A stretch of 45,415 nt of DNA from Polyangiaceae bacterium. Lineage in GTDB: Bacteria; Myxococcota_A; Polyangia; Polyangiales; Polyangiaceae. Location of the stretch: contig JADLAB010000439.1 in assembly GCA_020848455.1 (NCBI GenBank), positions 1 to 45,415 of the forward strand, read 5' to 3'. A program made the translations under genes and the position numbers. The notes beneath the pieces were generated by a model, which saw only the letters and a list, made by a program, of their open reading frames with translations, had not been told where the DNA came from and ran no database searches. Shown here one piece after another: positions 5,447-23,054 of the stretch (the stretch's first letter is position 1; each line of letters begins with the position of its first letter).

Positions 5447-7861
5447 TCACCTCTGCAGGCGACTCCCGGCGCGCTCGGCGTTGAGACGGAGCAGGCGGCC
5501 GAGCGCCTCGTCACCGGTGGCCGCGTCCCACTCGAGGCGCACGACGCCCTCGGGCCGCCGGCGGAAGTCGAGCACGGGCACGAGGTCGCCGAAGCCGTAG
5601 GCGTCGAGCACCACGCGGTCGAGCTCGGCCGCGAGGGCGCGGACCGCGGCGATGTCGGCCGAGCGCTCGGCGGGGTCGTGGAGGCGGTTGTAGCAGCGCG
5701 TCAGGCCCTCGCCCCGGGCGCGGCACACGGCGGCGCGCTGCGCCTCGAAGGCCCGCGCGACGGCGGCGAGGGCGGCGCCGTCCGCCGATGCGGGCGGCAA
5801 CGGGAAGGTCTCGAAGCAGTCGGTCGGGTTGTAGCGCAGGCCGTCGCCGAGCGTGGAGGCGAAGCTCCGGGCCCAGACGAGGTGCAGGCGCGAGCTCAGC
5901 ACGGCGAAGAGCGCGTCGTCGGCGTCGGGAAACACGACGAGCTGGTCGGAGAAGATCCGCGGCAGCGGGAGCCAGGCCGCCATGAGGTGCCGGGCGAGGC
6001 GCGGCACCACGAGGGCGCGCGTGCGGCCCGCGAGCGCGGCGCGGAGCTCGGGACGGTCGTTGGCGAAGCGCCACCACAGGCGCTTGTGCTGCCGGTCGAT
6101 GGGCGAGTCGCCGAGCCGGGCGCGCGCCGGCAGCACCTTCTGCCGGACGAGCGCGTACAGGCCCGGCCAGCGGCGCCGCACCTCCTCCTCGCTCGCGTCG
6201 CCGAAGAAGATGACGAAGCGCCGGGCCGCCTGCGTGGGCGAGGTCGAGACCTCCTCGCCGCCGAGGTACTCGAGCACGGCGTCGCGCGTCGCCGGCTCGG
6301 CGGCAGCGAGCCGCTCGAGCTCGGCGAGCGGGGTCGCCTCGGGGTTGTCGTCGTCGAAGGTGAAGCCCATCCCGCGGACGAAGCAGCCGATGAAGGCGCG
6401 CGCTCGGCTGTCCGCGAGACGGGCCGGATCGGCGTCCGCGCCGTGCGACGCGAGAAAGGCGGTGATGCGCGCGACCGAGCAGCCGTCGAGCTCGGCCCAG
6501 CCGGGGTCGAAGCCCTTGGCGACGTGGAGCAGGCTCACGACCACGGCGGCGGCACCGGGCCAGCGCACGCGGCGCTCGGCGGCGTAGACGACGCCGCCCG
6601 CCTCGCGCACGCGCAAGAGGCCCCCCACGCGCGTGTCGCCCTGCGCGATGCTGTTCGTGGTGACGAAGCCGAGCGTGCCGCCCGGGCAGAGGAGCGTGAA
6701 CGCGCGCCGCAGAAAATGCGCGGCGAGGTCGGTGTTGCGGCTCGCGTCGGGGTGCAGGGCGGCGAGCCAGTCGCGGTAGCTCCGGCCGAGGCTGGTCGAG
6801 ATGCGCTTGCCGCCGAGGAACGGCGGGTTGCCGACGATGCAGTCGAAGCCGGGCGCCGCGCGGGTGAGCACCTCGGGGAAGGCCTGCGCCCAGTCGAGCG
6901 GCGTGACCGGGAGCGTGCGCGAGCCGACGACGGCGCGGCGCGCGCGCGTGAGGCTCGGTCCCGCGCCCGCCCCGTAGGGCTGGCCCACGAGCGCATCGCC
7001 GTGGCGGAGCGCGTGCGCGAGGCGCGGCACGAGCGCCGCAGGCGCACCGGCGAAGAGCCAGAGGCAAGCGCGCGCGAGCGCGGCCACCGTCGCGTCGCAG
7101 TCGACCCCGTAGAGGCAGCGGGCCACGACCTCGCGGCGCGCGGCCGCGGCGAGCTCGGCGTCGGCCGCGACGGCGGAGGCCGTGCCGGTCCGCTGCCATG
7201 CCGCGGCGAGGGCCGCGGCGAGCTGCCGGCCGGCCTCGAGCAGGAACGCGCCGCTCCCCATCGCGGGGTCGCACACCGCGAGCGCGACGATGGCCTCCGG
7301 CGCCGGGCTCGGGCCGAGGCGGGCGAACAGCGGCCGCAAGGCCCGCTCGACGACGGGCGCCGTCAGCGCGCGCGGCGTGAAGTGCGTGCCGCTCCGGCGC
7401 CGCGCGTCGCCGGGCACGAGCGCGAAGCGACCGCCCGGGCCGGCGACGAGGGCGTGACCCCGGAGCTCCTCGTAGACGGCGCCGAGGTCCTCGAGCTCGA
7501 GCGCGCCGAGGTCGCGCGCGCCCGACAGGGCTGCGAGCGCCGTCCGCGCCAGCCCTCGATCGAGCCACGGGACGAGCCACGGCACCTCGGTCAGAGCAGC
7601 GAGCCCGAGGCGCGACGCGTCGCCCCGGCGAGCGGGCCCGCACGCCTGGGCAAGGACGAGCTCGCGCACGAGGCCGGCGACGAGCGCCTGTGCGACGACC
7701 TCGGCCCGGCCCCCGACCGCCTCGGCGCTCAGCACCTCGCACGACACGGCGCGACCGAGCGCCGAGAGCGCCTGGACCGCGGCCGCTCGCAGCTCGTCGC
7801 GGCTCGCGGCGGGCGGCGTCGCGCGGGCGCGAGCGCTCCTTCGGTCGGGACGCGTCGTCAC
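5447..7861 (-). CDS. solitary N6-adenine DNA methyltransferase (Eco57I/TaqI-like)
   Basis: An 804-residue class I S-adenosylmethionine-dependent DNA methyltransferase. A THFTPRALTAPVVERAL segment at ~160 leads into motif I (AVCDPAMGSGAFLLEAG, ~190-207). The catalytic motif IV is NPPF (~345, in CIVGNPPFLGGKR), typical of adenine-N6 enzymes. The C-terminal half (~480-760) contains TaqI-like target-recognition features (RLWWRFANDRPEL, FSDQLVVFPD, GLRYNPTDCFETFPLP). The N-terminal ~150 residues show no obvious PD-(D/E)xK nuclease motif, so a type IIG function cannot be claimed. There is no adjacent restriction, BREX or DISARM gene. The GTG start has GGTGAG upstream. It is co-oriented with, but 71 bases from, the end of the che operon and may be transcribed with cdsA. 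Confidence 0.85.
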   Translation of the reverse strand: MTTRPDRRSARARATPPAASRDELRAAAVQALSALGRAVSCEVLSAEAVGGRAEVVAQALVAGLVRELVLAQACGPARRGDASRLGLAALTEVPWLVPWLDRGLARTALAALSGARDLGALELEDLGAVYEELRGHALVAGPGGRFALVPGDARRRSGTHFTPRALTAPVVERALRPLFARLGPSPAPEAIVALAVCDPAMGSGAFLLEAGRQLAAALAAAWQRTGTASAVAADAELAAAARREVVARCLYGVDCDATVAALARACLWLFAGAPAALVPRLAHALRHGDALVGQPYGAGAGPSLTRARRAVVGSRTLPVTPLDWAQAFPEVLTRAAPGFDCIVGNPPFLGGKRISTSLGRSYRDWLAALHPDASRNTDLAAHFLRRAFTLLCPGGTLGFVTTNSIAQGDTRVGGLLRVREAGGVVYAAERRVRWPGAAAVVVSLLHVAKGFDPGWAELDGCSVARITAFLASHGADADPARLADSRARAFIGCFVRGMGFTFDDDNPEATPLAELERLAAAEPATRDAVLEYLGGEEVSTSPTQAARRFVIFFGDASEEEVRRRWPGLYALVRQKVLPARARLGDSPIDRQHKRLWWRFANDRPELRAALAGRTRALVVPRLARHLMAAWLPLPRIFSDQLVVFPDADDALFAVLSSRLHLVWARSFASTLGDGLRYNPTDCFETFPLPPASADGAALAAVARAFEAQRAAVCRARGEGLTRCYNRLHDPAERSADIAAVRALAAELDRVVLDAYGFGDLVPVLDFRRRPEGVVRLEWDAATGDEALGRLLRLNAERAGSRLQR

Positions 7862-7932: not shown

Positions 7933-9753
7933 CTAGAAGTCCGGCTCGCAGAACAGGGCGTCGCCGCAGCGCCGCAGCGCCTCCTGCACCGCGGCCGCGT
8001 CCGGCGGCCGATCCGCGGGCGACTTCGCCATGAGCAGAGCGATGAGCGCGTTGACGGGCGCGGGGAGCAGCGGCGATTGCGGCACGGGAGCCGACAGGTG
8101 CCGCAGCGCGGTCTCGACCTCGTCGTCGCCGTCGTAGGGCGGCTCGCCGGTGACGAGGAAGTGCAGCGTCGCACCGAGACTGTAGATGTCGGTGCGCGCG
8201 TCGACGGCGCGCCCCTGGACCTGCTCGGGCGCCATGAAGGCCGGCGTCCCCACCACCACGCCCGCCCCCACTTGTCCGGCGCGCACCGCGATGCCGAAAT
8301 CCGCGACCTTCACGACGCCCTCGCTCCCGAACACGAGGTTGCTCGGCTTCACGTCGCAGTGGAAGATGCCGCGCTCGTGGGCGGCGCCGAGGCCGGCGGC
8401 GGCCGCGCCGAGCGCCTCGAGCGCCGCCGCGGGGGTCATGGGTCCCTGCCGCAGGACGAGCTCGTCGAGGTTCGGCCCCGGCAGGTGCTCCATCACGAAG
8501 AAGTGGCGGCCCTGATCGCTGCCGGCGAAGTAGATCTGCACCACGTTCGGGTGGTTGAGCCGGGCGACGGCGCGCGCCTCACCGAGGAAGCCGACGACCC
8601 AGTCCACGTTGCGGGCCACGTCGCTCTTCAGCACCTTGATCGCGACCTCGCGGCCGAGCCCGGGATCCCGGCCCATGTAGACGAGGCCCATGCCGCCCTC
8701 GGCGAGCAGCGGACCGACGCGGTAGCCCGCGAGGGTGCGCGGCATCGGCTCGGCGCGCGCCGAAGGCGGCGTCGGCTCGGTCGGGTACACGCTGTGCTCC
8801 GAGCGCTGCTCGAGGAGCGAGCGCGCCGCCTCGAGCACCGTCCGCGGCGCGAACGGCTTCGCCACGCTCACCATGCCGGGCCCGAGGTGCGGCGCGAGGT
8901 TGGCCGCCGCCGAGCACACGACGACGCGCACCTGGGGCTCGTCCGCACGGATGATGCGCACGGCGTCGAGACCGCTCATGATCGGCATGTTCACGTCGAG
9001 CACCAGCACGTCCGGTCGCAGCTTGCGGAACTGCTCGACGACCTCGCGCCCGTTGCGCGCCTCGCCGACGACCTCGAACTCGCTGCCCTCGAACTCCATC
9101 CGGATCGCCATGCGCACGACGGGGCTGTCGTCGGCGATGACGACGGTCCTCACGGGCGACCGGGCGCTCGGCGCCTCCGCCGCCACGGGCTCGAGGGCGC
9201 GGCCGGCGAAGGCGCCGATGCACACGCACCCGATCTCGTGCGCGACCACCAGCGTCGCCATCGGTTCCGGCGCCTCGCTCAGGAGCTCGCCCGGCCCGCG
9301 CAGCGCGACCGGGCTCGAGACCGACAGGCGCGCGTCCACCTCTGCCACCGCGCGACACGCCACCCGGTTCACGAGCTCGGTGAGCGCGCCCTCGATCCAC
9401 TCGGCGCGCGCGGCGGGCGCGTCGGGCAGGCGCGTGCGCGTCAGCGCGAAGGAGAACTTCTCGCCGAGCACGCGCCCGATGTCGGCGTCGAGCTCGAAGG
9501 CGAGGGCCACGACCGGCGCTGCAGCCGCCCCCTCCACGCCGATCGGCGCCGGCAGCTCGCAGCCGATCACGATGGTGAGGTCGGCCGCCGTGAGCCGCGC
9601 CGTGCGCTCGGGCCCCGTCACCGGCTCGGGGAGCATCACACCGAGCTCGACGAGCACGTCCGCGAGCGCGTCGGCCGCGACCGCGCACCAGCGCGCCAGA
9701 TCCGGAGCGCCGGGGCCCTTCGGCCCCTTGCCCCTCGGGCCATCGTCCGTCAT
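7933..9753 (-). CDS. CheX/CheC-like + receiver + Ser/Thr kinase fusion
   Basis: A 606-residue cytoplasmic protein with three modules. Residues ~15-190 resemble a CheX/CheC-type domain and carry the ExxN phosphatase motif once (E126, N129 in ALTELVNRVA). Residues ~203-315 form a complete receiver: acidic pair D208-D209, phosphoacceptor D253 (VLDVNMPIMSGLD), S281 and K299. Residues ~342-600 are a Hanks-type kinase with a glycine loop (AEGGMG), K373, E392, a catalytic loop at 465-472 reading HCDVKPSN (Cys where Arg is usual), DFG at 485 and an APE-like segment. It is the last gene of the che operon, 12 bases after cheB. I infer that CheA phosphorylates its receiver and so links the chemosensory pathway to Ser/Thr phosphorylation. 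The CheX assignment is the least certain part. Confidence 0.85.
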   Translation of the reverse strand: MTDDGPRGKGPKGPGAPDLARWCAVAADALADVLVELGVMLPEPVTGPERTARLTAADLTIVIGCELPAPIGVEGAAAAPVVALAFELDADIGRVLGEKFSFALTRTRLPDAPAARAEWIEGALTELVNRVACRAVAEVDARLSVSSPVALRGPGELLSEAPEPMATLVVAHEIGCVCIGAFAGRALEPVAAEAPSARSPVRTVVIADDSPVVRMAIRMEFEGSEFEVVGEARNGREVVEQFRKLRPDVLVLDVNMPIMSGLDAVRIIRADEPQVRVVVCSAAANLAPHLGPGMVSVAKPFAPRTVLEAARSLLEQRSEHSVYPTEPTPPSARAEPMPRTLAGYRVGPLLAEGGMGLVYMGRDPGLGREVAIKVLKSDVARNVDWVVGFLGEARAVARLNHPNVVQIYFAGSDQGRHFFVMEHLPGPNLDELVLRQGPMTPAAALEALGAAAAGLGAAHERGIFHCDVKPSNLVFGSEGVVKVADFGIAVRAGQVGAGVVVGTPAFMAPEQVQGRAVDARTDIYSLGATLHFLVTGEPPYDGDDEVETALRHLSAPVPQSPLLPAPVNALIALLMAKSPADRPPDAAAVQEALRRCGDALFCEPDF

Positions 9754-9765
9754 GAGGCTGCCCCG

Positions 9766-10800
9766 CTACTCGCTGCCTTGCGCATGTCCTCCCCCTGTGG
9801 CGGTCGACGCCGCACCGGCGAGCGCGACGAGCCGCGCGGCGATCTCGGCGGGCGCGGCGACCTCGTCGGCCGCACCGAGCTCCACGGCTGCCCGCGGCAT
9901 GCCGTAGACCGCACACGACGTCGCCTCCTGCGCGATCGTGTGGCCCCCCGACGCGCGCAGGGCCTTGAGGCCGCGCGCCCCGTCGCTGCCCATGCCGGTC
10001 AGGATGACTCCGACCCGCACGCGTTCCCGGCAGCGGGCGAGCGACTCGAACAGGACGTCGGCGGACGGCTTGTGGCCGCCGATCGCCGGGGCGTCGGTCA
10101 CGCGCAGCTGGCCGCCGTCCTCCACGCCGAGGTGCCGGTCGCAAGGCGCGACGTAGACGCACCCGGGGGCGAGCTGCTCGCCGTCCTCCGCGACCTTGAC
10201 CGGGCGACCGACGACGCCCCCGAGCCAGGCGACGAACTGGTCCAGGAACCCCTCGGTCATGTGCTGGACGACCACGATCGGCGCCACGAAGCTCCCGGGC
10301 AGCTCGCCCAGGATGCGCGCGAGCACCGGCGGCCCCCCGGTCGAGACCGCCACGGCCACGATGGCGCCGTCGACCGGCGCGCGCAGCACCGCGCCGCTCG
10401 CGCGCGGCACCTCGACCTCGGGCCGCGGCGCCCGGGCAGCGGTGGCGCGCAACGCCCGACACAGCTCGGCGCTGCCCCGCGGCCCGAGGTGGAGCCGCAC
10501 CACGTCGAGCGCGCCGGCCCGCGAGAGCGCGTGGATGGCCGCCGGCGACAGCTGTCCCTCGTCGAAGACGACGATCGGCGTACGCAGCTGCCGCTTCAGC
10601 TCCGCGACCACGCGCGCCGCCCCGTCGGGCAGGCTCGCGCCGACGAGAATGACGTCGGGCCGCGATTTCCGGGCGACGCGCAGCGCCTCCGCCCCGCCTC
10701 GGGCCACGGCGACGACGGCGAGATCGCGTTCGCCGTCGAGCGCGCGCTGCAGCGCCGCGCGCACGGGCTCGTAGTACTCGACGAGCAGGACGGCGATCAA
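9766..10800 (-). CDS. cheB: CheB-type methylesterase with degenerate receiver
   Basis: CheB removes methyl groups from, or deamidates, chemoreceptor glutamates. The catalytic domain (~145-335) has the full triad: Ser153 in AVSTGG, His180 in VVQHM and Asp273 in LTGMGSDG. The N-terminal ~110 residues have receiver-like spacing but lack the chemistry. The acidic cluster is replaced by VEYYEP, and the phosphoacceptor position reads VGASLP instead of LDVEMP. I see no conserved Lys. Phosphorylation-controlled activation therefore seems lost. I place the start at a TTG (10800) overlapping the cheA stop (TTGA), with GGAG nine bases upstream; no better start exists before the receiver sequence. The protein is 344 residues. 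Confidence 0.88.
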   Translation of the reverse strand: MIAVLLVEYYEPVRAALQRALDGERDLAVVAVARGGAEALRVARKSRPDVILVGASLPDGAARVVAELKRQLRTPIVVFDEGQLSPAAIHALSRAGALDVVRLHLGPRGSAELCRALRATAARAPRPEVEVPRASGAVLRAPVDGAIVAVAVSTGGPPVLARILGELPGSFVAPIVVVQHMTEGFLDQFVAWLGGVVGRPVKVAEDGEQLAPGCVYVAPCDRHLGVEDGGQLRVTDAPAIGGHKPSADVLFESLARCRERVRVGVILTGMGSDGARGLKALRASGGHTIAQEATSCAVYGMPRAAVELGAADEVAAPAEIAARLVALAGAASTATGGGHAQGSE

Positions 10801-13076
10801 GGCGTCGCACTCCGCCGCAGCAGCTGGTCGAGCAGGCTGCGCATGCTCTCGCGCACGAAGTCCTTCTTGATCACGTAGGCGTCGGCCCCGACCTCCACGC
10901 CCCGGAGCTGGTCGGCGGCCCCGTCGGCGGAGGTGAGCAGCACGACCGGCAGGTGCGCGAGCCGTGGGCTCGCGCGCACCGAGCGCGTCAGATCGAAGCC
11001 GTCCATGTTGGGCATGTTGGCGTCGGTGACGAGCACGTCGAAGGACTCGGCCTCGAGCGCACCGAGCGCCTGCAGCCCGTCCGCAGCCGTCACGACCCGA
11101 TAGCCGAGCGCGCCGAGCTCGCCGGCGACGAGCATCCGCGTCGTCACCGAGTCGTCGACCACGAGCGCGCGCCGAACGGTGGTGCGGCGCCGGGCGGGCT
11201 CGTCGCCGCCGAGCGCACCGGCCAGCCCCTCCGTCACGAGGCCCTCGAGGTCGAGCACGGGCGCGACCCTGCCGTCGTCGAGGACCGTGGCCCCGGCCAG
11301 CACGCCGATCGCGCGGAGCGGCCCCGGCAGGTCCTTCAGGATCATGGGCCGCTCGCCGAGGATCACGTCGACCGTCACGGCCAGGCGGCGGCGGCCCGCG
11401 GCGAGCACCACGACCTGCAGGGTGCCGCCGTCGCCGGGCCGGAGCGGCAGCTCCCGGCGATCGAGCAGCGCCGCGAGCGAGGCGAGTCGCACGGGCCCCG
11501 CCTCGATGTGCGCGGTCGGCACGCCGTGCAACGGCCGCACCTCCGCGACCGGCAAGCGCGCCACGCGCTCCACGCCGGCGAGCGGCAGCGCGTAGAGCTC
11601 GCCGCCGGCCGACACGACGAGCCCCCGTGTGGCGGCCACCGTCAGCGGCACGTCGAGCGTGAAGGTCGTCCCGGCGCCGGCCGCGGAGACGACCGTCACC
11701 TGCCCGCGCAGGCGCTCGACCGCGTCGCGCACCACGGAGAGCCCGACGCCCCGTCCGGCCGCCGCGGTGGCCTCGGTGCGCGTCGAGAACCCCTCGCGGA
11801 AGATGAGCTCGAGCACCGCCTCGTCGCCGAGATCCGCCGCCACCGCTTCGGACACGAGCTGCTCGCGCACCGCCCGCGCGCGCACCGCGCCCACGTCCAC
11901 CCCCCGCCCGTCGTCGCTCACCACGAGGGCGACCCGGTGGCCGCGCGACTCGGCCGCGAGCACGATGCGGCCGGCGCTGCTCTTGCCCGCGGCCTCGCGC
12001 TCGTGCGGCGCCTCGAGCCCGTGGGCGACCGCGTTGCGCAAGAGGTGCACGAGCGGCGCCTTCAAGCCCTCGAGCACGCGCTTGTCGAGGCGCACGTCGC
12101 CGCCGCGCAGCTCGACCTCGACGCGCTTGTCGAGCGCCCGCGCCCAGTCGCGACACGGGCGCGCCAGCGTCTCGAAGAGCGTGCTCGCGGGCAACATGCG
12201 CAGGGCGCGCAGCTCCTCGAGCAGCGTGCCGGCCGCGGTGGCGAGGCGCTCCGCGTCGGTCGAGACGTCCCACGCGCTCGCCCCGAGGCGCTGGTGGACG
12301 CGCCCGAGCTCGGCGGCGAGCGCCCCGTCGCCCGCGCGGTGACCCCGCTCGCCCGCCCGCACCTGCAGCAGCTGCTCGAGCTGCCCCTCGACCGCCGAGA
12401 TGCCGTCGATGCGGTGTCGCAGGCGCGCCACGCCGACCGCGAGGTCTTCGGCCTGAGCCAGCACCGCGTCGAGGCGCTCGGTCGACACGCGCAGCGCGCG
12501 CACCTCGAGCGCGCCGCCGGCGTCGCGCGGCTCCTGGGTGGCGCCGGCCCGCGCGGTGTCGGGCGGCGGCACCTCGGCGGCGCGGCTCGACGGCACGGCC
12601 TGCGCGGGCGCGCTCGCGGGGATGGCCCCCGACGACGCGGGCCCGGCCGCGCTCGACCCCACTCCAGTGGCGAGCGCCCCGAGCGCGCGGGTGGTGCGGA
12701 CGAGCTCCTCGAGCTCCGCCGCGGGCACGGGCTTGCCCTCCGCGGCGCGGCGCGTCCAGACGGGCACCACGTCGAGCGCTCCGAGCACACCGGACACGAG
12801 CGGGGACAGATCGGTGGGCGGCGCGCGCCCCACGGCGAGGACGGCGGTCTCGAGCTCGTGGATGAGGCCCGCGATCTCGCCGAGCCCGACGATGGCGGAC
12901 GAGCCCTTCAGGGTGTGCAGCGTGCCGCCGATCTCACCGAACAGACGCGCTCGGTCCCCGGGCGCCGCGGCGTCCTCGAGCGACATGAGGGCGCGCCCCA
13001 GGGTGCGGACGAGCTCGGCCGACTCGTCGCGGAAGACCCCGAGCAAGGCGGCGCGGCGGCGCTCGGCGATCGGCAT
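10797..13076 (-). CDS. cheA: hybrid histidine kinase CheA with C-terminal receiver
   Basis: A 759-residue hub kinase of the chemosensory system. The HPt domain (~8-115) has phosphorylatable H54 in LHTLKGSS. A Pro/Ala linker follows, with no recognisable CheY-binding P2 domain. The dimerisation and ATPase regions contain the N box (LVHLLRNAVAHG, ~343-353), G1 (VVSDDGRGVD, ~386) and G2 (GRGVGLSVV, ~441). A CheW-like regulatory domain spans ~480-620, and a complete receiver spans ~635-755 (DD at 641-642, phosphoacceptor D685 in VTDANMPNMDGF, late Lys in VIKKDF). The CheA-CheY arrangement is like FrzE and WspE, where the receiver often acts as a phosphate sink or output. It starts three bases after the MCP stop. 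Confidence 0.96.
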   Translation of the reverse strand: MPIAERRRAALLGVFRDESAELVRTLGRALMSLEDAAAPGDRARLFGEIGGTLHTLKGSSAIVGLGEIAGLIHELETAVLAVGRAPPTDLSPLVSGVLGALDVVPVWTRRAAEGKPVPAAELEELVRTTRALGALATGVGSSAAGPASSGAIPASAPAQAVPSSRAAEVPPPDTARAGATQEPRDAGGALEVRALRVSTERLDAVLAQAEDLAVGVARLRHRIDGISAVEGQLEQLLQVRAGERGHRAGDGALAAELGRVHQRLGASAWDVSTDAERLATAAGTLLEELRALRMLPASTLFETLARPCRDWARALDKRVEVELRGGDVRLDKRVLEGLKAPLVHLLRNAVAHGLEAPHEREAAGKSSAGRIVLAAESRGHRVALVVSDDGRGVDVGAVRARAVREQLVSEAVAADLGDEAVLELIFREGFSTRTEATAAAGRGVGLSVVRDAVERLRGQVTVVSAAGAGTTFTLDVPLTVAATRGLVVSAGGELYALPLAGVERVARLPVAEVRPLHGVPTAHIEAGPVRLASLAALLDRRELPLRPGDGGTLQVVVLAAGRRRLAVTVDVILGERPMILKDLPGPLRAIGVLAGATVLDDGRVAPVLDLEGLVTEGLAGALGGDEPARRRTTVRRALVVDDSVTTRMLVAGELGALGYRVVTAADGLQALGALEAESFDVLVTDANMPNMDGFDLTRSVRASPRLAHLPVVLLTSADGAADQLRGVEVGADAYVIKKDFVRESMRSLLDQLLRRSATP

Positions 13077-13079
13077 GGC

Positions 13080-14465
13080 TCAGAGGTCCTTCGCGATCGA
13101 GCCCATGCTCTCGGCGAGCGAGCGCAGCTCGCGCGCCGCGGTCTCGAGCTGCTTCGTGCCGACCACCGAGTCGCCGGTCGCCTGCGCGATGTTGCTCATG
13201 GCGCCTGCGACCTGATCGATGCCGATCGACTGCTGGCGCGCGGCGACGGCGATCTGCTTGGCGGCCTGCGACGAGTCGGAGATGGTGCCGGTCAGCTTGG
13301 CGATGCGGGCGCTCGCCGTGGTCGCGAGCTGCACCCCCTCCTCGACCTTGCGGCTGCCGTCCTCGGTGGTCTTGACCACGGAGCGGATCACCTTCTGGAT
13401 CTCGCCGAGGATGCCGCGGATCTGGGTCGTGGAGCGCTTGGAGTGCTCCGCGAGCTTGCGCATCTCGGCCGCCACGACCGCGAAGCCCTTGCCGAACTCG
13501 CCCGCCTTGGCCGCCTCGATCGAGGCGTTGAGCGCCAGCATGTTGGTCTGCTCCGCCAGCTCGTTCACCGTCGCGACGATGTCGCCGATGCGCGAGGCCT
13601 GCTCGGACCGCTGCACGACGCTCTCGGCGCTGCCCGTCACCTTCTCGCGCGTGGCGCTCGCCGCCTTGATGCTCTCCTCCATCGCCCCGACGCCCTCGAG
13701 GGCCACCGCCTCCGAGCGCTCGGCGAGGTCGATGACCGACTGGGCGTGCTCGGCGGCCTGCTGGGCCGCGTGGTTGATCTGCTTCAGCGTGCTGCTCGTC
13801 TCGCTCACCGCGGCGGACTGCTGCGAGAGGCTCGCGTTCTGCTCGCTCGCCGTCGCGAGTAGCTGCGAGACCACCGGTGTGAGCTGCGCGGTGGCGCCCT
13901 TGAACATCTTGAGCAGGCGCGTCTTCTCGGCGAGCCCGTCGATGTCGGAGAGATCGTGCAGCATGCAGAACAGGCCGACGACCTGCCGGATCGAGGTGCG
14001 CAGTGGGCCGGCGTTGAGCAGGAAGCGCACCTTCGCGCCGCGCCCCGTCACGAGCGTGCACCGGAGCGAGGCCGCCGCCGTGGCGCTGGTCACGCAGGCC
14101 TGGAGCGCGCCGAGGACCTCGGGCTCCTCGGTGCGGAGGAAGTCGGCGAGCGGCTGGCCCGCGAGCTCGGCGGGGGTGCGGGCACAGAGCTTGGCGAACG
14201 CCTCGTTGCAGAAGGTGAGCTTGAAGTGGGTGTCCGTGGTGAAGAACGGCTCCACGATGCCGTGCTTCACGCAGTTCGCGAAGGCGAGCTCGTTGCCGAG
14301 CAGCAGCACCTGCTTGTCGACGTTCGCGGCGTAGGTCTCGAGCGCCTGGATCTTGCTCCTCAGGGCGGCGACGTCCTCGACGACCGGCGCCTTCGGCGCG
14401 CGTGCACCGCCCCTCGGGGCGACCTTGCGCGGACGCCCTGCACGTGCAGCTTCCTTGTTCGACAT
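13080..14465 (-). CDS. soluble PAS-containing methyl-accepting chemotaxis protein
   Basis: A 461-residue chemoreceptor without membrane segments, so it probably senses in the cytoplasm. A basic N-terminus (~1-35) and a short coiled coil precede a PAS-like domain (~60-185: [20 protein letters not shown] through [11 protein letters not shown]). The MCP signalling domain (~200-455) carries the hairpin tip: [20 protein letters not shown], followed by [23 protein letters not shown]. The ATG at 14465 has a strong GGAGGAG upstream, and longer in-frame extensions run through the preceding gene. It lies between the two-CW gene and cheA. The ligand or cofactor is not evident. PAS domains can bind haem, flavin or small molecules, and I see no diagnostic residue. 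Confidence 0.93.
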
Positions 14466-14566: not shown

Positions 14567-14842
14567 CTAGATCTGGCCCGACATGACCTGCCGGTAGAAG
14601 TCGCACATCTGGCAGTTGCCGAGCTTCTCGGCGAAGGTGCCCTGCACCTCGCCGCCGCACAGCGTCCCGGCCACGAGCCAGCAGTCGCGCCCGTGGCCAT
14701 GCGCCGCCGGACAGGCACCGAGCTCCACCTCCTTGGCACCCCCGATCTCGCGCCCGCAGCGCTGGCGCTCCCAGCAGTTGGGCGCGGCAGGCGCCTGCCC
14801 TGCCCGGACACCACTCACGGACTTCTTCTGCTTCGTGGCCAT
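14567..14842 (-). CDS. two-CW domain Cys-rich small protein
   Basis: A 91-residue protein matching the two-CW type domain seen next to or fused with bacterial chemoreceptors. It has paired CW motifs ([14 protein letters not shown] and [17 protein letters not shown]) and a C-terminal [12 protein letters not shown], giving eight Cys in all. A basic, disordered leader covers residues ~1-22. The ATG at 14842 has AAGGAG five bases upstream, sitting on the stop of the preceding cheW. The Cys spacing suggests metal or redox sensing, for example an Fe-S cluster or zinc, but no function is established for this protein. Being encoded immediately upstream of the PAS receptor suggests that the two act together as a sensory unit. 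Confidence 0.75.
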
Positions 14843-14844
14843 GT

Positions 14845-15471
14845 TCACTCCTTCTCGTGCGGATCCTTGAGCGTCTCGTCGGATGGCGAGACCGCACCCG
14901 AGAGCCGGTGCTCGAGCAGCAGCGCGGCGAGGTCGACCAGGACCAGGCTGCCGTCGACGATGCCGGCGATGTGCGAGGCCCCGCCGACGGGCGGCGTGAC
15001 ACGGCTCGGAGCCACGTCCTCGATGCCCTCCACGGCCTCGACCAAGAGCCCTACCTCGTCGCCCGGTGCCCCCACGACGATCACCTTGGTGAGATCGGCG
15101 ATGCCGCTGCGCGACAGGCCGAGCAGGGCCCCGAGATCGACCAGGAGCAGCACCTCGCCCCGCCGGTTCGTGACCCCGGCGACGAACGGGCCGGCGCGCG
15201 GGATGCGCGTGACCGACGACAGCGGCAGGAGCTCGACCGCGAGCCCGGCGTCGAGCCCGTAGCGACCGCCGGCACAGCCCACGACGAGCACGCTGCGCAG
15301 CGCGGTCGCGGGCGCCGTGTCGGCCTCGGTGCCCTGGGCGAGCGCGCGTGCCCGCTCGCGCAGGATCTCGAGGACGCGCTCCTCGCTCGGGGCCGCGACG
15401 AGCGCCTGCTCGGCGTGGTCGAGCCGCCGGTGGATCTCGGCCCAGTCGACGCGCGCGCGGCTGGCCGTCAT
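14845..15471 (-). CDS. cheW: CheW-type coupling protein
   Basis: A 208-residue protein. Residues ~58-195 form a CheW-like double SH3 fold ([20 protein letters not shown], then [20 protein letters not shown] and [18 protein letters not shown]). An extra helical N-terminus (~1-55) is not typical of plain CheW. CheW bridges receptor and CheA in the signalling array. It starts by ATGA overlap with cheR, so the two are translationally coupled. It is one of two CheW-like genes in the operon. Two versions may serve different receptors or compete for CheA. Confidence 0.9.
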
Positions 15472-16919
15472 CGCGCGTCCCTCTCGCTCGCGAGGCGGCT
15501 CGTGATGATGCGCCGCAACCATTCCGCGGTGATCTCGTCGGAGCCCGGCAGCACGTCGCGGTCGGAGCGCTCGGCGAGCGCCTCGAGCGCGTTGAGCAGA
15601 AAACCGCGCGCCTCCGCGGCGCGCCCGTCGGCCGCGACGAGCTCCGCCATGCCGAACGACGCGAGCGCGAAGGACGGGTCGAAGTAGAGCGCGCGGCGCA
15701 GACTGGCGGCGGCCTCTGCGCGCCGGCCCTCGGCGCCTCGCAGGTGGCCGAGCAGGTAGTGCGCCGGCGCCGAGCTCGGCTCGAGCGCCACCCACTGCTC
15801 GGCCCAGCGCTCCGCGTCCGCCGCCGCACCGCGCGCCGCACCGGCCAGCGCCTCGCTGCGCACGCGCTCGAGGTCCGGCGGGGCGGCGGGCTCGGCCCTG
15901 GTCCGCGGCGCGCGCGGCGCGACGGGCGCGGGCCGCGCCGCCTCGCGGGCGGCACTGCGCGCGCTCGAGCTCGGCCGGTGCGCGGGCCGCACCTCGGCGC
16001 TGCGCGCCGCGCCGGTGCGCTCGGCCGGGCGCCGGAAGACCATCGTCGCGCCGCGCGCCGAGACCCGCTCGAGCCCGACGATGCGCGCGGGCAAGGGATC
16101 GGAAGGGCCGAAGAACGCGAAGCCCGCATCGTGCAAGCAGGTCGCGAGGCGCGCGACCACGCGCGCCACGACCTCGGCATCGAAGTAGATGAACACGTTC
16201 CGGCAGAACACGACGTCGAGCCCCCCCGTCCGCGCACCGGGATCGGGGTAGCCCGCCCCGGCGAGGTTGAGCGGCGCGAAGTGCACGAGGCGTCGGAGAT
16301 CCTCGCGCACGCGCCGGACGCCCCGGTCGCCGGCGACGAAGTAGCGGGCCCGCTCGATCGCGTCGACGCCACGCAGCGACCACGGGCCGTAGTCGGCCGC
16401 CCGCGCCTGGTCGAGGTAGCTCGCGTTGATGTCCGTACCGAGCACCTCGACGTTCCAGCCCGGATCGACGGACTCGTGAAGCGCGATGGCGAGCGAGTAG
16501 GCCTCCTCGCCGCCCGCACAGCCCGCGCTCCACGCTCGGAGCGTGCGGTCGGTGGACCCGCGGGCGCGGCGCTGACGTACGAGCTCGGGCACCACGCGCG
16601 CGCGCAGGTAGGCGAACTGCTCGGGCAACCTGAAGAAGTAGCTCTCGCGCACCGTGAGCTCGCCGACGAGGCGCGCGAGCTGCAGGGCGCCCGAGGGATG
16701 CTCGACGAGGCTCGCGAGGTGCTCGGGGGACGCGAGGCCGAGCTCGCTCACGCCGCTCCACACCGCGCGCACGAGATCCGGCCGGTTGTGGCTCCCGAAG
16801 GCGAGACCGCAATGGGCGGTCAACCGGGCGCCGATGCGCTCGAGCGTGGGCTCCGCGATCGCGCGCTCCCGGCCGGTACGCAGAGCGGCGCGCCCGAGCG
16901 GCTCTTCGGGGCCGCTCAT
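15468..16919 (-). CDS. cheR: CheR methyltransferase with TPR-like C-terminus
   Basis: A 483-residue protein. The N-terminal helical CheR domain is at ~20-95. The SAM-binding domain at ~95-300 shows the family motif AGCAGGEEAYSLAIAL, with VLGTDINASYLDQAR and DVVFCRNVFIYFD. After a Pro/Ala/Arg linker (~300-360) the C-terminal ~110 residues have TPR-like helices (AHYLLGHLRGAEGRRAEAAA, then LRRALYFDPSFALASF). This architecture resembles WspC and FrzF of alternative chemosensory systems. It should methylate receptor glutamates, such as those of the nearby PAS-MCP. The ATG overlaps the stop of the upstream cheW (ATGA), and its own stop overlaps the next cheW start. Confidence 0.95.
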   Translation of the reverse strand: MSGPEEPLGRAALRTGRERAIAEPTLERIGARLTAHCGLAFGSHNRPDLVRAVWSGVSELGLASPEHLASLVEHPSGALQLARLVGELTVRESYFFRLPEQFAYLRARVVPELVRQRRARGSTDRTLRAWSAGCAGGEEAYSLAIALHESVDPGWNVEVLGTDINASYLDQARAADYGPWSLRGVDAIERARYFVAGDRGVRRVREDLRRLVHFAPLNLAGAGYPDPGARTGGLDVVFCRNVFIYFDAEVVARVVARLATCLHDAGFAFFGPSDPLPARIVGLERVSARGATMVFRRPAERTGAARSAEVRPAHRPSSSARSAAREAARPAPVAPRAPRTRAEPAAPPDLERVRSEALAGAARGAAADAERWAEQWVALEPSSAPAHYLLGHLRGAEGRRAEAAASLRRALYFDPSFALASFGMAELVAADGRAAEARGFLLNALEALAERSDRDVLPGSDEITAEWLRRIITSRLASERDAR

Positions 16920-17644
16920 GAGCCTCGCGCCGGCCTCGGCGGCGGCGCCCTGCGGCGGGGCTTCTTCGGCTGCAGGGTGGGCGCGGCTCCACCCGCAGGG
17001 GGCGTGGCGGCCTCGACCGCGGCGCCTGCCGGGCTCGCGCCCTCCGCCTGCGACGCGGCGTCGGCTCCGCCCGCACGCGCCGCGGCGTCCGCCAGGCGCG
17101 CGTGCTCTTCGGGGGCGAGCAGCTGGTCGAGCGCGAGCACCAGCGTCAGCTCCCCGGCCGTGCGCAGCGTGCCGTCGACGACGCGCCGCCCGGCGAGCGA
17201 CTCCAGCGTCGGAAGCAGGTCGGCGCGGCGCTGGTAGGCGCCCGGCGCCACCTCCTCGAGGCCCTCGATGTCGTCCACCACGATCCCGAGCAGCCGCCCG
17301 CAGGCGAGCGCCACCACGATCTTCGAGTCGAGCCCCGGACGGCGCTGCGGCAGGCCGAGCTGCGGGGCCACATCGAGCAACGGCACCACCTGGCCCCGGT
17401 AGTCGATGACCCCGAGCACCGCCGGCGACCGCTCGGCAATGGGCGTCGGCGCGACCATCCGCACGGCCTCGACGACGCGGCCGAGGTCGGCGGCGAGGCG
17501 CGCACCGGCCACGCGGAACACGAGCAAGGCAGACGGCTCGACCTCCGGCGGCCGCGGCCCGCCGTCGCCGCGGGCGCGCGCGACCTCGCCGCGCAGGCGC
17601 TGGAGCTCCTGCTCCAAGGTTCCCATTCGCTCGGCAATCGACAT
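16916..17644 (-). CDS. cheW: CheW-like protein, first gene of the che operon
   Basis: A 242-residue protein with a short N-terminal coiled coil (~1-28: GTLEQELQRLRGEVARAR) and a CheW-like domain at ~35-180 (SALLVFRVAGARLAADLGRV, VLGVIDYRGQVVPLLDVAPQ, LTLVLALDQLLAPEE). The C-terminal ~60 residues are an Ala/Pro-rich then basic, disordered tail (PKKPRRRAPPPRP). I chose the ATG at 17644, which starts the coiled coil. Longer in-frame extensions toward 17764 are Arg-rich and run into the divergent promoter region. WspB- and WspD-like proteins occupy comparable operon positions. Confidence 0.87.
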   Translation of the reverse strand: MSIAERMGTLEQELQRLRGEVARARGDGGPRPPEVEPSALLVFRVAGARLAADLGRVVEAVRMVAPTPIAERSPAVLGVIDYRGQVVPLLDVAPQLGLPQRRPGLDSKIVVALACGRLLGIVVDDIEGLEEVAPGAYQRRADLLPTLESLAGRRVVDGTLRTAGELTLVLALDQLLAPEEHARLADAAARAGGADAASQAEGASPAGAAVEAATPPAGGAAPTLQPKKPRRRAPPPRPARGS

Positions 17645-17767
17645 CTCGCGGAGCCTCGAATCAGTAGACCCCGGGCGCGAACCATGCCGGCGCGCAGCCC
17701 GGGACATCCGAGGGGAATGCTGCCTCGCCACCCGACGTCGGCGCGAGGATTGCGCGCCAGTCATTCC

Positions 17768-18766: not shown

Positions 18767-19199
18767 GGGTCCTCCTCTCGAGCCGCAGCGGTCCGAGGCG
18801 GCGGAGCGCGGCGACGAAGTCGTCGACGAGCTCGAGGTAGCGCGTGGACTCGGCGGCAGAGACGTGGTCGAAGCGGCAGCGCTCGGGCTCGACGCCGCAC
18901 TGGTCGAGCAGGCGCAGCAGAATGCGCTGCCGCTGGACGGCGCGGTAGTTCTGCTCCTTGTAATGGCAGCCGCCGGGGTGGCAGCCCATGATGAGCACGC
19001 CGTCGGCGCCCGCGCCGAAGGCCTCGAGCACCAGGCTCGGCTCGACGCGGCCGGTGCACATGAGCCGGATGGTGCGCAGCCCCGCGGGTACCGACGCGCG
19101 CGTCCCGCCGGCATTGTCGGCGCAGGCATAGGCGCAGTGCGTGCACAACAGGCCCAGCACCCGCGGCTCGAACGCTCGCCCCTCGACCGGCGCGCTCAT
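18747..19199 (-). CDS. mvhD: MvhD-type electron-transfer subunit
   Basis: A 150-residue iron-sulfur protein matching the delta subunit (MvhD/FrhD family) that links the hydrogenase to HdrA. The Cys-rich core is at ~19-80: LLCTHCAYACADNAGGTRAS, then IRLMCTGRVEPSLVLEAF, then GADGVLIMGCHPGGCHYKEQ. These fit the [2Fe-2S] ligand pattern of the family. The C-terminal helices (~85-140) are also typical. It overlaps the hdrA stop (ATGA) and the tusA start. In methanogens MvhD docks MvhAG on HdrA; the same electron path is expected here. Confidence 0.93.
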   Translation of the reverse strand: MSAPVEGRAFEPRVLGLLCTHCAYACADNAGGTRASVPAGLRTIRLMCTGRVEPSLVLEAFGAGADGVLIMGCHPGGCHYKEQNYRAVQRQRILLRLLDQCGVEPERCRFDHVSAAESTRYLELVDDFVAALRRLGPLRLERRTRVHRPH

Positions 19200-21145
19200 T
19201 GCAGCACCTCCCGGATCTCGCTCAGCAGCTGTGCGTGGGTGAAATGGGCGCCCGTGATCGCGGCCGCGGGACAGGCGGCGACGCAGGTCCCGCAGCCCGT
19301 GCAGAGCACGGGGTTCACCGACGCCCGGGCCGTCGCCTGGTCGAAGGCAATCGCCTTGTAGGGACACACCCCGACGCACACGTGGCAGCCCGAGCAGCGC
19401 ACGGCGTCCACGCTCGCCACGCAGGGATCGACCTCGATGGTCCGCCCGGGAACGGCCATGGCGAGCGCCTGTCCCGCGGCGGCCGCGCCGTGCGTGACGG
19501 AGGCGGCGACCCCCATCGGCGCCTGACAGGTGCCGGCGAGCATCACGCCGCGGATGCGGCTCGTCGCGTGGCCGGTCGAGGGACCGAGCGGGGCGAAGAA
19601 GCCGTGCCGATCGCGCCCCACGTCGAGCAGCCGCGCGAGCTCGGCATGACCCGGCCCCGGCGCCAGCGGCGGGCACAGGACCACGAGGTCGAAGGCGCCG
19701 CGCTCGGTCGCGTGCCCGCCCCAGGTGAGCTCGGCCGCGGCGTCGTCGCGGGCCGACACGGCGAGCGCCTCGGGACGCTCGTAGCGCCGGAACGACACGC
19801 GCGCGTGCGCCCGGGCGCGCTCGTAGAGCGCCCAGTCCTCGGGCCCCGGCAGGCACAGCTCGCGGTGCACGTGGGTGACCGTCGCCTCGGGCAGGCGCTC
19901 GGCGAGCGCGAGGCCGAGCTTCAGCGCCACGCCACAGCACACGACCGAGCAATAGTCGCAGTGGCCCGCCTGCATCGCGCCGGCGCAGTGCACGAGCGCG
20001 ATGCGGCGCGGCGGCGCCGCGAGGCGGCCGCGGAGCTGCCCCGCGGTCGGGCCGTCGGGGGAGAGCATGCGCTCGACCTCGAGGCTCGTGTGCACGCCGG
20101 AGAGCGTCCCCCAGCCGAGCGCCGGCAGGCGCCCGACGTCGTAGAGCGAGGCGCCCACGGCGAGGACGACGGCGCCCACCTTGCGCTCCAGCAACGCCGC
20201 AGCGTCGTCGTAGCGGATCGTGCCGGGCACGGGGCAGGCGACCTGGCACAGCGTGCAACTCTCGCCGTGCGACCGCAGGCAGGCCTGCGCGTCGAGCACG
20301 GGCACATTGGGCATGGCGCCGGGGAAGGCGAAGCCGATGGCGCGACGCGTACCGAGCTCCCCCAGGCGCGGGTCGGGCGCCACGGCGGGACACACGGGCA
20401 CGCAATCGCCGCAGCCGATGCAGCTCTCGGCGACGACGAAGCGCGGCCGGCGCGCGATGCCGAGCTCGAAGTTGCCGAGGTAGCCCTTCGCGCCCGCGAG
20501 CCGCGCGAGCAGGAGCACCTCGATGCGCGGGCTGTCGAGCACGCCCGTCACGAGCGGGTCCATGAGGCACGAGCCGCACTCCATGCCGGGGTGCACCTGG
20601 TCGAGGCGCACGGCGGCCCCACCGAGCGCCGGCCCCTGCTCGACGAGCACGACGTCGCGACCCGCCCCCGCCAGGGCGAGGGCCGCCGCGAGCCCGGCCG
20701 GGCCGCCGCCGATCACCGCCACGCGCGGATCGGTCTCCACGGCGAGGGGCAGCAGCGGGACCTGGAGCGCCGCCCGACGCACCGCGGCGCGCACGTACGC
20801 GATGGCCTTGTCCGTGGCGGCCTCGCGATCGGGCGTCACCCACGCGATTTGCTCGCGCACGTTGGTCATGGCGAGCAGGTAGGGGTTGAGGCCCGCATCC
20901 GCCATCACGCGCCGCAGCTTCGGCTCGAGCTCGCGCGGGGAAGAGGCCGCCACGACGACCCGCTCGGGCCGCTCGTCGACGAGCAGCTGCCGCATCGCCT
21001 TCACGCCCGCCGACGAGCAGGTGAGCTCGAGGGCGTGGAAGCTGGCGACCTCGGGCAGCGCGGCGATCGTGCGCGCGACGCGCTCGAGGTCGATGCGACC
21101 GCCGCCCATCTCGCCGCACTTGCAGTAGAAGACGGCCGTCCTCAC
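19196..21145 (-). CDS. hdrA: HdrA-like flavin and Fe-S disulfide reductase subunit
   Basis: A 649-residue cytoplasmic protein of the HdrA family. The N-terminal domain has the CKCG motif (~8-11) and the MTNVREQIAWVT segment. The FAD-binding loop VIGGGPAGLAAALALAG is at ~144-160. A [4Fe-4S] motif follows (C242, C245, C248, C252 in CIGCGDCVPVCP), then an unusual ESCTLCQVACPVPGT-type Cys cluster and the HdrA signature HCDYCSVVCCGVALKLG. Two C-terminal ferredoxin motifs begin at C584 and C615. HdrA in methanogens bifurcates electrons between heterodisulfide and ferredoxin. Here HdrB and HdrC are not encoded nearby. The GTG start overlaps the protease stop (GTGA) with GGGAGG upstream. Confidence 0.94.
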   Translation of the reverse strand: MRTAVFYCKCGEMGGGRIDLERVARTIAALPEVASFHALELTCSSAGVKAMRQLLVDERPERVVVAASSPRELEPKLRRVMADAGLNPYLLAMTNVREQIAWVTPDREAATDKAIAYVRAAVRRAALQVPLLPLAVETDPRVAVIGGGPAGLAAALALAGAGRDVVLVEQGPALGGAAVRLDQVHPGMECGSCLMDPLVTGVLDSPRIEVLLLARLAGAKGYLGNFELGIARRPRFVVAESCIGCGDCVPVCPAVAPDPRLGELGTRRAIGFAFPGAMPNVPVLDAQACLRSHGESCTLCQVACPVPGTIRYDDAAALLERKVGAVVLAVGASLYDVGRLPALGWGTLSGVHTSLEVERMLSPDGPTAGQLRGRLAAPPRRIALVHCAGAMQAGHCDYCSVVCCGVALKLGLALAERLPEATVTHVHRELCLPGPEDWALYERARAHARVSFRRYERPEALAVSARDDAAAELTWGGHATERGAFDLVVLCPPLAPGPGHAELARLLDVGRDRHGFFAPLGPSTGHATSRIRGVMLAGTCQAPMGVAASVTHGAAAAGQALAMAVPGRTIEVDPCVASVDAVRCSGCHVCVGVCPYKAIAFDQATARASVNPVLCTGCGTCVAACPAAAITGAHFTHAQLLSEIREVLQ

Positions 21146-21597
21146 GGGTCCCTCCCGCCGAGCAGGGCGAGCACGGCGGCCACGGCACGCGGCACGGCGC
21201 CCGCCACGGCCTCGCTGAGGTCGGTGCCGAAGGTCTCGAGATCGGCGCCGACGATGCCGAGCAGCGTGAGGTGCGCCGGCATGGGCAGACCGAGCTCGCG
21301 CGCGGTCGCGACGGCCACGGCGAGCCCGCCGTCGTGCGACAGCACGGTGCTCCGGATGGGCCCGTCCACGGGCAGCGCCACGAGCGCGCCCGGCGCGCCC
21401 TCGTCCGGGCCGACGGCGTCGATCACGACCGCGCACGCATGGCCCGAGATGCGCTCGACGACGTCGAGGCCTCCCGTCTGGAGCTCGTGCACGGTGACCT
21501 CGCTGCCGGTCGCCGCGCGCACGGCGCGCGCGACGCGCAGGCCCACGGCGTCGTCGCGGAGGTACGGGTTGCCGATGCCGACCACGACGCAGCTCAC
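21142..21597 (-). CDS. [NiFe]-hydrogenase maturation protease
   Basis: A 151-residue endopeptidase of the HyaD/HybD/FrcD family, which clips the C-terminal extension of the hydrogenase large subunit after nickel insertion. The family hallmarks are seen: VVVGIGNPYLRDDAVGLRVA near the N-terminus with the metal-binding Asp/Glu, HELQTGGLDVVERI, VVIDAVG and SHDGGLAVAVA. It lies directly after mvhA (GTGA overlap, GAGGTG ribosome-binding site), which fits a dedicated protease for that subunit. The GTG at 21597 gives the canonical short N-terminus; upstream extensions fall inside mvhA. No hypABCDEF genes are in the window, so the remaining maturation factors must be elsewhere. Confidence 0.93.
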   Translation of the reverse strand: MSCVVVGIGNPYLRDDAVGLRVARAVRAATGSEVTVHELQTGGLDVVERISGHACAVVIDAVGPDEGAPGALVALPVDGPIRSTVLSHDGGLAVAVATARELGLPMPAHLTLLGIVGADLETFGTDLSEAVAGAVPRAVAAVLALLGGRDP

Positions 21598-23054
21598 GGC
21601 ACACCTCGACGAACCGTGTGCAGGACCTCGCCCGCGGCGCTGCGCACCCGCACCTCGAGCGGCATCTGCCCCGGCAGGGCGTGGGTCGCGCACGACAGGC
21701 ACGGGTCGTAGAGGCGGAAGGCCATCTCGATGCGGTTGAGCAGGCCGGGCTCGATGCGCCCGCCGCGGATCAGGCGCTCTGCCGCGCGCTTGATGCTCAT
21801 CGCGATGGGCGCGTGGTTGTGGGTCGTGCCGACGACGAGGTCGACGTGTGTGAGGACGCCGCGCGCGTCGGCCTCGTAGCGGTGCAGGAGCGTGCCGCGC
21901 GGCGCCTCCACGGACCCGACCGCGGGGCCCGGTCGCGCCCCGCCGGCGGGCAACACGCGCACCTCGGGCGAGGTGATCTCCGGGTCGGTCGCGAGCTCGA
22001 GCATGCGCTCGGCCGCGTAGAGCAGCTCGACGAGGCGCGCCCAGTGGGTGGCGAGGCGGTGGTGCACCGGCCGCCCGCCGAAGAATGCGAAGAAGCGCTC
22101 GAAGTGCTGCTGCGCGAGCGGCGTTGCCATCCCGGTCGCGACGTTGAGGCGCGCGAGCGGCGTCGCGCAGTACACACCGCTCTCGACGCCGTCCACGAAG
22201 CCGCGCCAGCCGATCGCGCGCAGGTACGGGAACTTGAGGTAGCTCCAGGGCTCCGTGCGCTCGGCCACGTGCTGCGCGTAGTCGCGCGCCGGGAAGCGCA
22301 GGAGCTCCCGACCGTCGGGGTCGATGACCCGGATCGTACCGTCGTAGAAGTTGACCCGGCCGGCCGGGTCGACGGTGCCCATGTAGTAGGTGCGATGGTG
22401 GTAGAGGTCGGAGCCGAGCTCCGCACGCCAGGTCGGATCGTCGAGCACGAGCCCGCGGAAGAGCTCGAGCGTCGTCAGCGCGAAGGCCACGTTGGCGCGG
22501 GCGGCCGCCTCGACCTCGACCCGCACCGCCTCGGTCACGGCCTTGCTCCAGCCACCGGGCAGACCCGCAGCCGGGTGGATCCCTCGACCTCCGAGGCGCT
22601 CGATCACCTGGTGGCAGCGGGCCCGGGTGGCGATCACCTGCCGGCCGAGCTCCAGGCCCGCCTTGCGCACGACACCGAGCAGGTTGCGCTCGGCCGCGGG
22701 GGCGTCCGGCCCGACGATGAGATCCGGCCCGCCGAGCGCGTAGAAATGCGTGGTGTGATCGGCGACGAAGAAGGTGGCGTACACGAGCTCGCGGATCTTC
22801 AGCGCCGCGGGCGGCGGCGTGACGTCGAACGCCTTCACGGACGCCATGTGGTGGGCCTCGGGGCAGACGCCGCAGATGCGGTTCGTGATGACCGGCATCT
22901 CCTCGGCGAGCCGCCCGACGCAGAAGCTCTCGAAGCCGCGCAGCTCGGGCACCTGGAAGTACGCCTCGGCGACGTCCCCCTCGGCGTCGAGGAACAGATC
23001 GATCTTCCCGTGCCCCTCGAGCCGGGTGATGGGGTCGATGGTGACGCGCCTCAC
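21594..23054 (-). CDS. mvhA: group 3 [NiFe]-hydrogenase large subunit MvhA-like
   Basis: The 486-residue catalytic subunit. The nickel ligands are all present: the N-terminal motif RICGVCPEAHH (C61, C64) and the C-terminal motif DPCLSCATH (C452, C455). The N-terminus RVTIDPITRLEGHGKI is typical. Twenty-eight residues follow H458, a plausible extension for cleavage by the adjacent protease. DPCLSCATHALPGQMPLEVRV resembles cytoplasmic group 3c/3d enzymes. The missing signal peptide on either subunit agrees with a cytoplasmic enzyme. The gene starts at a GTG overlapping the small-subunit stop. With HdrA and MvhD encoded downstream, group 3c (Mvh-type, F420-independent) is the best assignment. 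Confidence 0.94.
   Translation of the reverse strand: MRRVTIDPITRLEGHGKIDLFLDAEGDVAEAYFQVPELRGFESFCVGRLAEEMPVITNRICGVCPEAHHMASVKAFDVTPPPAALKIRELVYATFFVADHTTHFYALGGPDLIVGPDAPAAERNLLGVVRKAGLELGRQVIATRARCHQVIERLGGRGIHPAAGLPGGWSKAVTEAVRVEVEAAARANVAFALTTLELFRGLVLDDPTWRAELGSDLYHHRTYYMGTVDPAGRVNFYDGTIRVIDPDGRELLRFPARDYAQHVAERTEPWSYLKFPYLRAIGWRGFVDGVESGVYCATPLARLNVATGMATPLAQQHFERFFAFFGGRPVHHRLATHWARLVELLYAAERMLELATDPEITSPEVRVLPAGGARPGPAVGSVEAPRGTLLHRYEADARGVLTHVDLVVGTTHNHAPIAMSIKRAAERLIRGGRIEPGLLNRIEMAFRLYDPCLSCATHALPGQMPLEVRVRSAAGEVLHTVRRGVP

Follow-up and report, generated by a model that had tools for sequence, protein, structure and literature searches.

The known outputs of bacterial chemosensory arrays are motors, second messengers, histidine kinases and transcription factors. 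The CheX phosphatases (Pfam PF13690), known for example from Borrelia burgdorferi and Thermotoga maritima, are dimeric proteins. The ExxN motif is needed for dephosphorylation of CheY~P (PMC3510030), and in Leptospirae CheC or CheX is found fused to CheA (PMC10782961). Arrays of the alternative cellular function (ACF) class are marked by three features: CheR carries a TPR, CheA is a hybrid and the response regulator is multidomain (PMC3447774, PMC10782961). Che6 of Myxococcus xanthus encodes CheW, CheR-TPR, CheW, a methyl-accepting chemotaxis protein (MCP), CheA-REC and CheB, in that order (PMC3945109). The Wsp system of Pseudomonas comprises WspE (CheA-REC), WspF (CheB), WspC (CheR-TPR) and WspR (REC-GGDEF). 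It is also of the ACF class, with a CheR-TPR and a multidomain output regulator (PMC3447774). A survey of the gene clusters of 132 CheR-TPR sequences listed outputs that include a PP2C phosphatase and cyclases, with no Ser/Thr kinase among them (PMC3447774).

Here we analysed a Polyangiaceae che operon whose final gene would supply a Ser/Thr kinase output. We put at about 0.6 the probability that its product is an output variant of ACF systems, in which CheA phosphorylates a receiver that controls a fused Ser/Thr kinase. The operon lies in the window, the whole 45,415-nucleotide stretch analysed, from a 9.2-Mb assembly in 742 contigs. The operon genes upstream of the fusion gene are all on the minus strand and mostly touch: cheW (16916-17764), cheR with a C-terminal TPR region (15468-16919; TPR matches individually weak), a further cheW (14845-15471), a gene for a Cys-rich two-CW domain protein of 91 residues (14567-14842; NCBIfam NF045718, 2e-22), an MCP gene (13080-14465), cheA (10797-13076) and cheB (9766-10800), all but the two-CW gene assigned by Pfam. 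The MCP, of 461 residues, contains PAS and has no obvious transmembrane segment, as judged from its start and hydropathy, and CheA consists of Hpt, HATPase and CheW domains with an intact C-terminal receiver and no P2. The two-CW gene aside, this is the gene order of M. xanthus Che6 (PMC3945109). The CheR-TPR and the hybrid CheA with C-terminal receiver are like those of Che6 and Wsp, and the cluster holds a multidomain response regulator in which a receiver is fused to a kinase. On gene content and order, the operon is of the ACF, Che6-like type. Upstream on the same strand, positions 19199-23981 encode an HdrA-like FAD/Fe-S protein and a NiFe-hydrogenase large-subunit-like protein.

The fusion gene (7933-9753, minus strand), last in the operon, opens with an ATG at 9753, 12 nt past the stop codon of cheB, and closes with a stop at 7935-7933. 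Its codon-position GC of 0.78/0.50/0.96 is typical for genes of this DNA. The 606-residue product has three parts: an N-terminal domain, tentatively CheX-like (residues 1-199; 9157-9753), a receiver (residues 201-316; 8806-9153) and a Hanks Ser/Thr kinase (residues 342-596; 7966-8730). Pfam matches to Response_reg (204-309, 6.1e-20) and Pkinase (345-585, 1.4e-41) are far beyond chance. The receiver has the complete residue set of a response regulator, with the acidic pair D208/D209, phospho-Asp D253, S281 in the T/S position and K299. The kinase is likewise complete (K373, E392, D467, K469, N472, DFG 485-487 and APE 508-510, with a G-loop present), and we rejected a pseudokinase reading because every catalytic residue is in place. 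The original prediction had described such a protein at the end of a che operon, leaving its strand unstated, with a fully equipped receiver, a kinase bearing HCD for HRD (residues 465-467) and the residues of an ExxN motif at E126 and N129, and in all of this it was accurate. Directly downstream (5450-7861, minus strand) lies a gene for an MmeI/Eco57I-like adenine methylase with a target-recognition domain.

Comparison with relatives revealed that the phospho-site acids of the CheB receiver are gone, with VEYYE at the site of the acidic pair and ILVGA at that of the phospho-Asp, while the catalytic motifs of the methylesterase are kept. The same degenerate receiver occurs in a sister genome of the same genus, and the CheB receivers of the aligned relatives retain the phospho-Asp. 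CheB is thus probably not under CheA control here, and the only receivers of the operon still open to phosphorylation would be the one in CheA itself and that of the fusion protein. The operon holds no other stand-alone output regulator, and the loss in CheB is predicted to leave the fusion protein as its only separate phosphorylatable regulator. CheA's own receiver could nevertheless be the real output. The fusion receiver would then act as a phosphate sink or scaffold, its kinase being constitutive or otherwise regulated and the true output lying in CheA's receiver or in a regulator encoded elsewhere. Intact CheA receivers have been proposed as sinks in other systems (PMC10782961), and the genome encodes dozens of other receiver proteins. 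We nonetheless regard this explanation as rather unlikely: an intact receiver is fused to a strongly constrained kinase at the operon's output position, and a CheB that has lost its phospho-site leaves less need of a sink.

That the position after cheB serves for output is indicated by the che neighbourhoods of the best CheA relatives. In four of these genomes cheB is followed by a gene for a REC-HisKA-HATPase protein, and in five others, four of genus g15 and one of genus g14 in the same family, by a gene whose product has a Ser/Thr kinase ahead of a receiver (STK-REC). With two kinds of signalling protein at the same place in relatives, we interpret the position as an output slot. The STK-REC proteins resemble the fusion protein in their operon position and in combining a Hanks kinase and a receiver in one polypeptide, but differ in having the kinase first and the receiver last, in containing no CheX-like part and in having Gln at the phospho-Asp position (VVCQ). 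Their kinases form a clade of their own (100/99) in a tree of 81 kinase domains, apart from the window kinase. Separate clades and opposite domain orders suggest that a Hanks kinase was probably recruited to this operon position at least twice. Three of the STK-REC genes, two in g15 and the one in g14, are preceded by a cheB encoding two receivers, and the CheB receivers of the STK-REC operons are intact; the dead receiver is thus CheB's in the fusion operon and the kinase's own in g14 and g15. CheA would accordingly be unable to drive the g14/g15 kinases by the route proposed here, and phosphotransfer from CheA does not appear to explain those proteins. Their unphosphorylatable receivers count against the main reading and fit the sink explanation above.

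The same neighbourhoods bear on whether the fusion gene is merely a chance neighbour of the che operon that takes its signal from some unrelated histidine kinase. The genome is large with many signalling genes, and these genomes have a great many Ser/Thr kinases, which makes one beside a che operon less surprising than elsewhere and which we counted against the main reading. One such kinase, an ordinary HRD enzyme, is encoded elsewhere in the window (33078-35126, plus strand). Adjacent receiver and kinase genes also occur outside any che cluster: in G114 and G099 a kinase gene comes immediately after a gene for a single receiver (L178, 6977-8689, minus; L179, 6838-8598, plus), and we rejected both as candidate REC-kinase fusions, as each is a pair of unfused genes away from che genes. 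Against chance stand the 12-nt spacing to cheB, the same order in the sister genome and the kinase-receiver proteins in the equivalent position of two further genera, and we consider a chance neighbour very improbable.

We then asked how the kinase might be controlled. Among 70 kinases, a set biased towards the best relatives of the fusion kinase together with others fetched, HRD was found in 61 and HCD in the fusion kinase only. Of the 60 kinases with a readable activation segment, the fusion kinase was also the only one without Ser, Thr or Tyr between the DFG and GTP motifs (IAVRAGQVGAGVVV). Both features set it outside the RD, loop-activated subtype, and non-RD kinases are usually independent of activation-loop phosphorylation. 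Autophosphorylation of this loop would be unable to switch the kinase on, so control should lie elsewhere, with the receiver as the obvious candidate; we infer that the receiver performs this role. A loop without a phosphorylation site could also belong to a kinase that is always on, as the sink explanation would have it.

The N-terminal domain is the least certain part of the protein. The original prediction took residues 1-195 to be CheX/CheC-like. ExxN in CheX register and a weak profile similarity favour the CheX half of this claim; residues 1-199 have no relevant Pfam match, and CheC is less likely than CheX and was rejected, with one ExxN motif present instead of two and CheX being the family of the neighbours. 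Residues 118-155 align to the CheX core with ExxN, S..P and G in register. A CheX profile built from 38 Myxococcota sequences scored 5.0 and 7.7 bits on the fusion protein and its sister ortholog, values equalled by about 5 and 2 of ~1320 unrelated segments. Targeted p values came to about 0.002-0.015. In tests other than the segment comparison, p was about 0.004-0.015 for the better profile, against about 0.035 when a smaller profile was used. The local profile score exceeded that of 250 of 250 decoys yet was matched by 2 of 150 shuffles. By itself the CheX similarity falls short of significance: the reversed sequence scored almost as high in one test, and a global profile comparison gave no separation from decoys. 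E-x-x-N by itself arose in 8.5% of shuffles of the domain, making the motif alone weak evidence, and ExxN with the downstream P..G pattern, picked after the match was seen, in 0.7%. PF13690 did not match residues 1-199 at E values up to 10, nor anything in the source genome.

AlphaFold models, one for the full-length protein and one for residues 1-199, were too uncertain to rely on (pLDDT 37); these low-confidence models place ExxN on a long helix, and a PDB fold search with the model of residues 1-199 returned only noise. PDB sequence matches of the same residues were chance hydrolase matches, and tblastn and HMM searches for distant homologs gave weak matches, of which the top ones inspected were unrelated, among them a TPR protein, a PilM-like protein and a hybrid CheA.

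Genomic context speaks for CheX. A CheX gene is the last che gene in the clusters of five genomes from the same family, order or class, and follows cheB/cheR in one of the relatives with a REC-HisKA-HATPase output (G092). In G183 (L196, 1310-3256, plus strand), a single open frame has a receiver-like stretch and then, at its C-terminal end, a CheX (PF13690, 1.8e-11), and this Pfam-grade CheX also has an Arg after the motif Asn (ELINRIAG), making the Arg of the fusion motif compatible with CheX. Like CheX phosphatases, then, the domain has ExxN followed by S..P...G and is of similar size; unlike them, it falls below any Pfam threshold, has Arg after Asn and is fused to a receiver and kinase. 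The CheX reading is plausible, and on balance we favour a CheX ancestry for the domain, with less confidence in a phosphatase activity in cis.

As CheX proteins are dimeric, a role in dimerisation is a serious alternative. The domain might be a lineage-specific dimerisation or docking module instead of a CheX phosphatase, leaving receiver and kinase as a CheA-controlled Ser/Thr kinase. Besides the missing Pfam match and the weak CheX similarity, the distribution of the domain agrees with this. The fusion has one ortholog, at 91% identity and with the same operon and gene order, in the sister genome (Myxococcales bacterium NC_groundwater_1660). By tblastn against 145 relatives and 379 genomes sampled across the phylum, the N-terminal domain was present in only these two orthologs, and an HMM search of 318 class genomes found no further homolog. 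A GTDB contig scan retrieved only distant kinases elsewhere, leaving two genomes, among those searched, that carry the architecture. Between the two orthologs dN/dS was 0.40 for the N-terminal core, 0.17 for the receiver and 0.09 for the kinase, which points to selection on each of the parts. It is weakest on the N-terminal one, and the status of this domain as the fastest-evolving part also fits a lineage-specific module. The CheX-register residues (ExxN, Pro and Gly), the similar length, a targeted CheX score above nearly all decoys and the terminal CheX genes of che operons nearby in the tree speak against a lineage-specific module, which we hold to be a real contender of less than even standing. 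No description of the three-domain layout turned up in the open-access papers searched, in keeping with the original prediction, which knew of no described system so arranged.

Together, these observations suggest how the pathway might run. An array of the soluble PAS-MCP would control CheA, with the two-CW protein as a possible redox or metal co-sensor. From CheA, phosphate would go both to the receiver in CheA itself and to D253 in the fusion protein, where phosphorylation would relieve inhibition of the fused Ser/Thr kinase or dimerise it, and the kinase would then phosphorylate target proteins. The N-terminal domain, whose source was probably a CheX at the end of a che operon, might hydrolyse the D253 phosphate or dimerise, so that the signal would be reset by this domain or by self-hydrolysis of the receiver. 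The full version, a one-protein His-Asp to Ser/Thr converter in which an array-phosphorylated receiver gates a Hanks kinase allosterically and a CheX-type phosphatase resets it in cis, within a family that recruited Hanks kinases at least twice, is a tentative proposal, clearly less secure than the CheA-receiver-kinase route itself. The predicted end of the pathway in Ser/Thr phosphorylation gains from an intact receiver and kinase at the ACF output position, the lack of another stand-alone regulator and the second kinase-receiver protein in two genera, and it stands at the level of sequence comparison.

If correct, a chemosensory array with a Ser/Thr kinase as its direct output would bring the two main phosphosignalling currencies of bacteria together in a single polypeptide. 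The Hanks kinase would moreover have a defined activator upstream of it, and D253 would offer a genetic handle; to our knowledge, most bacterial Ser/Thr kinases have neither. Since a kinase is found twice at the same operon position, the link is open to comparative testing.

Among known kinases, the best NCBIfam match of the fusion kinase is the PASTA kinase Stk1/PknB, below cut-off. It has the full catalytic core in common with PknB-family Hanks kinases, but no transmembrane or PASTA part, HCD instead of HRD and no activation-loop phospho-site. M. xanthus shares the operon order through Che6, but its Che6 MCP has other domains, its CheY table is without a REC-kinase and a CheX homolog is not reported. 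Wsp, with its hybrid CheA and two CheW proteins, is the best analog for the working of the pathway, and the pathway type, ACF, is already known. The Wsp output is a diguanylate cyclase without an extra N-terminal domain and the WspF receiver is phosphorylatable, whereas here the output would be a Ser/Thr kinase preceded by an N-terminal domain, and the CheB receiver has lost its phospho-site.
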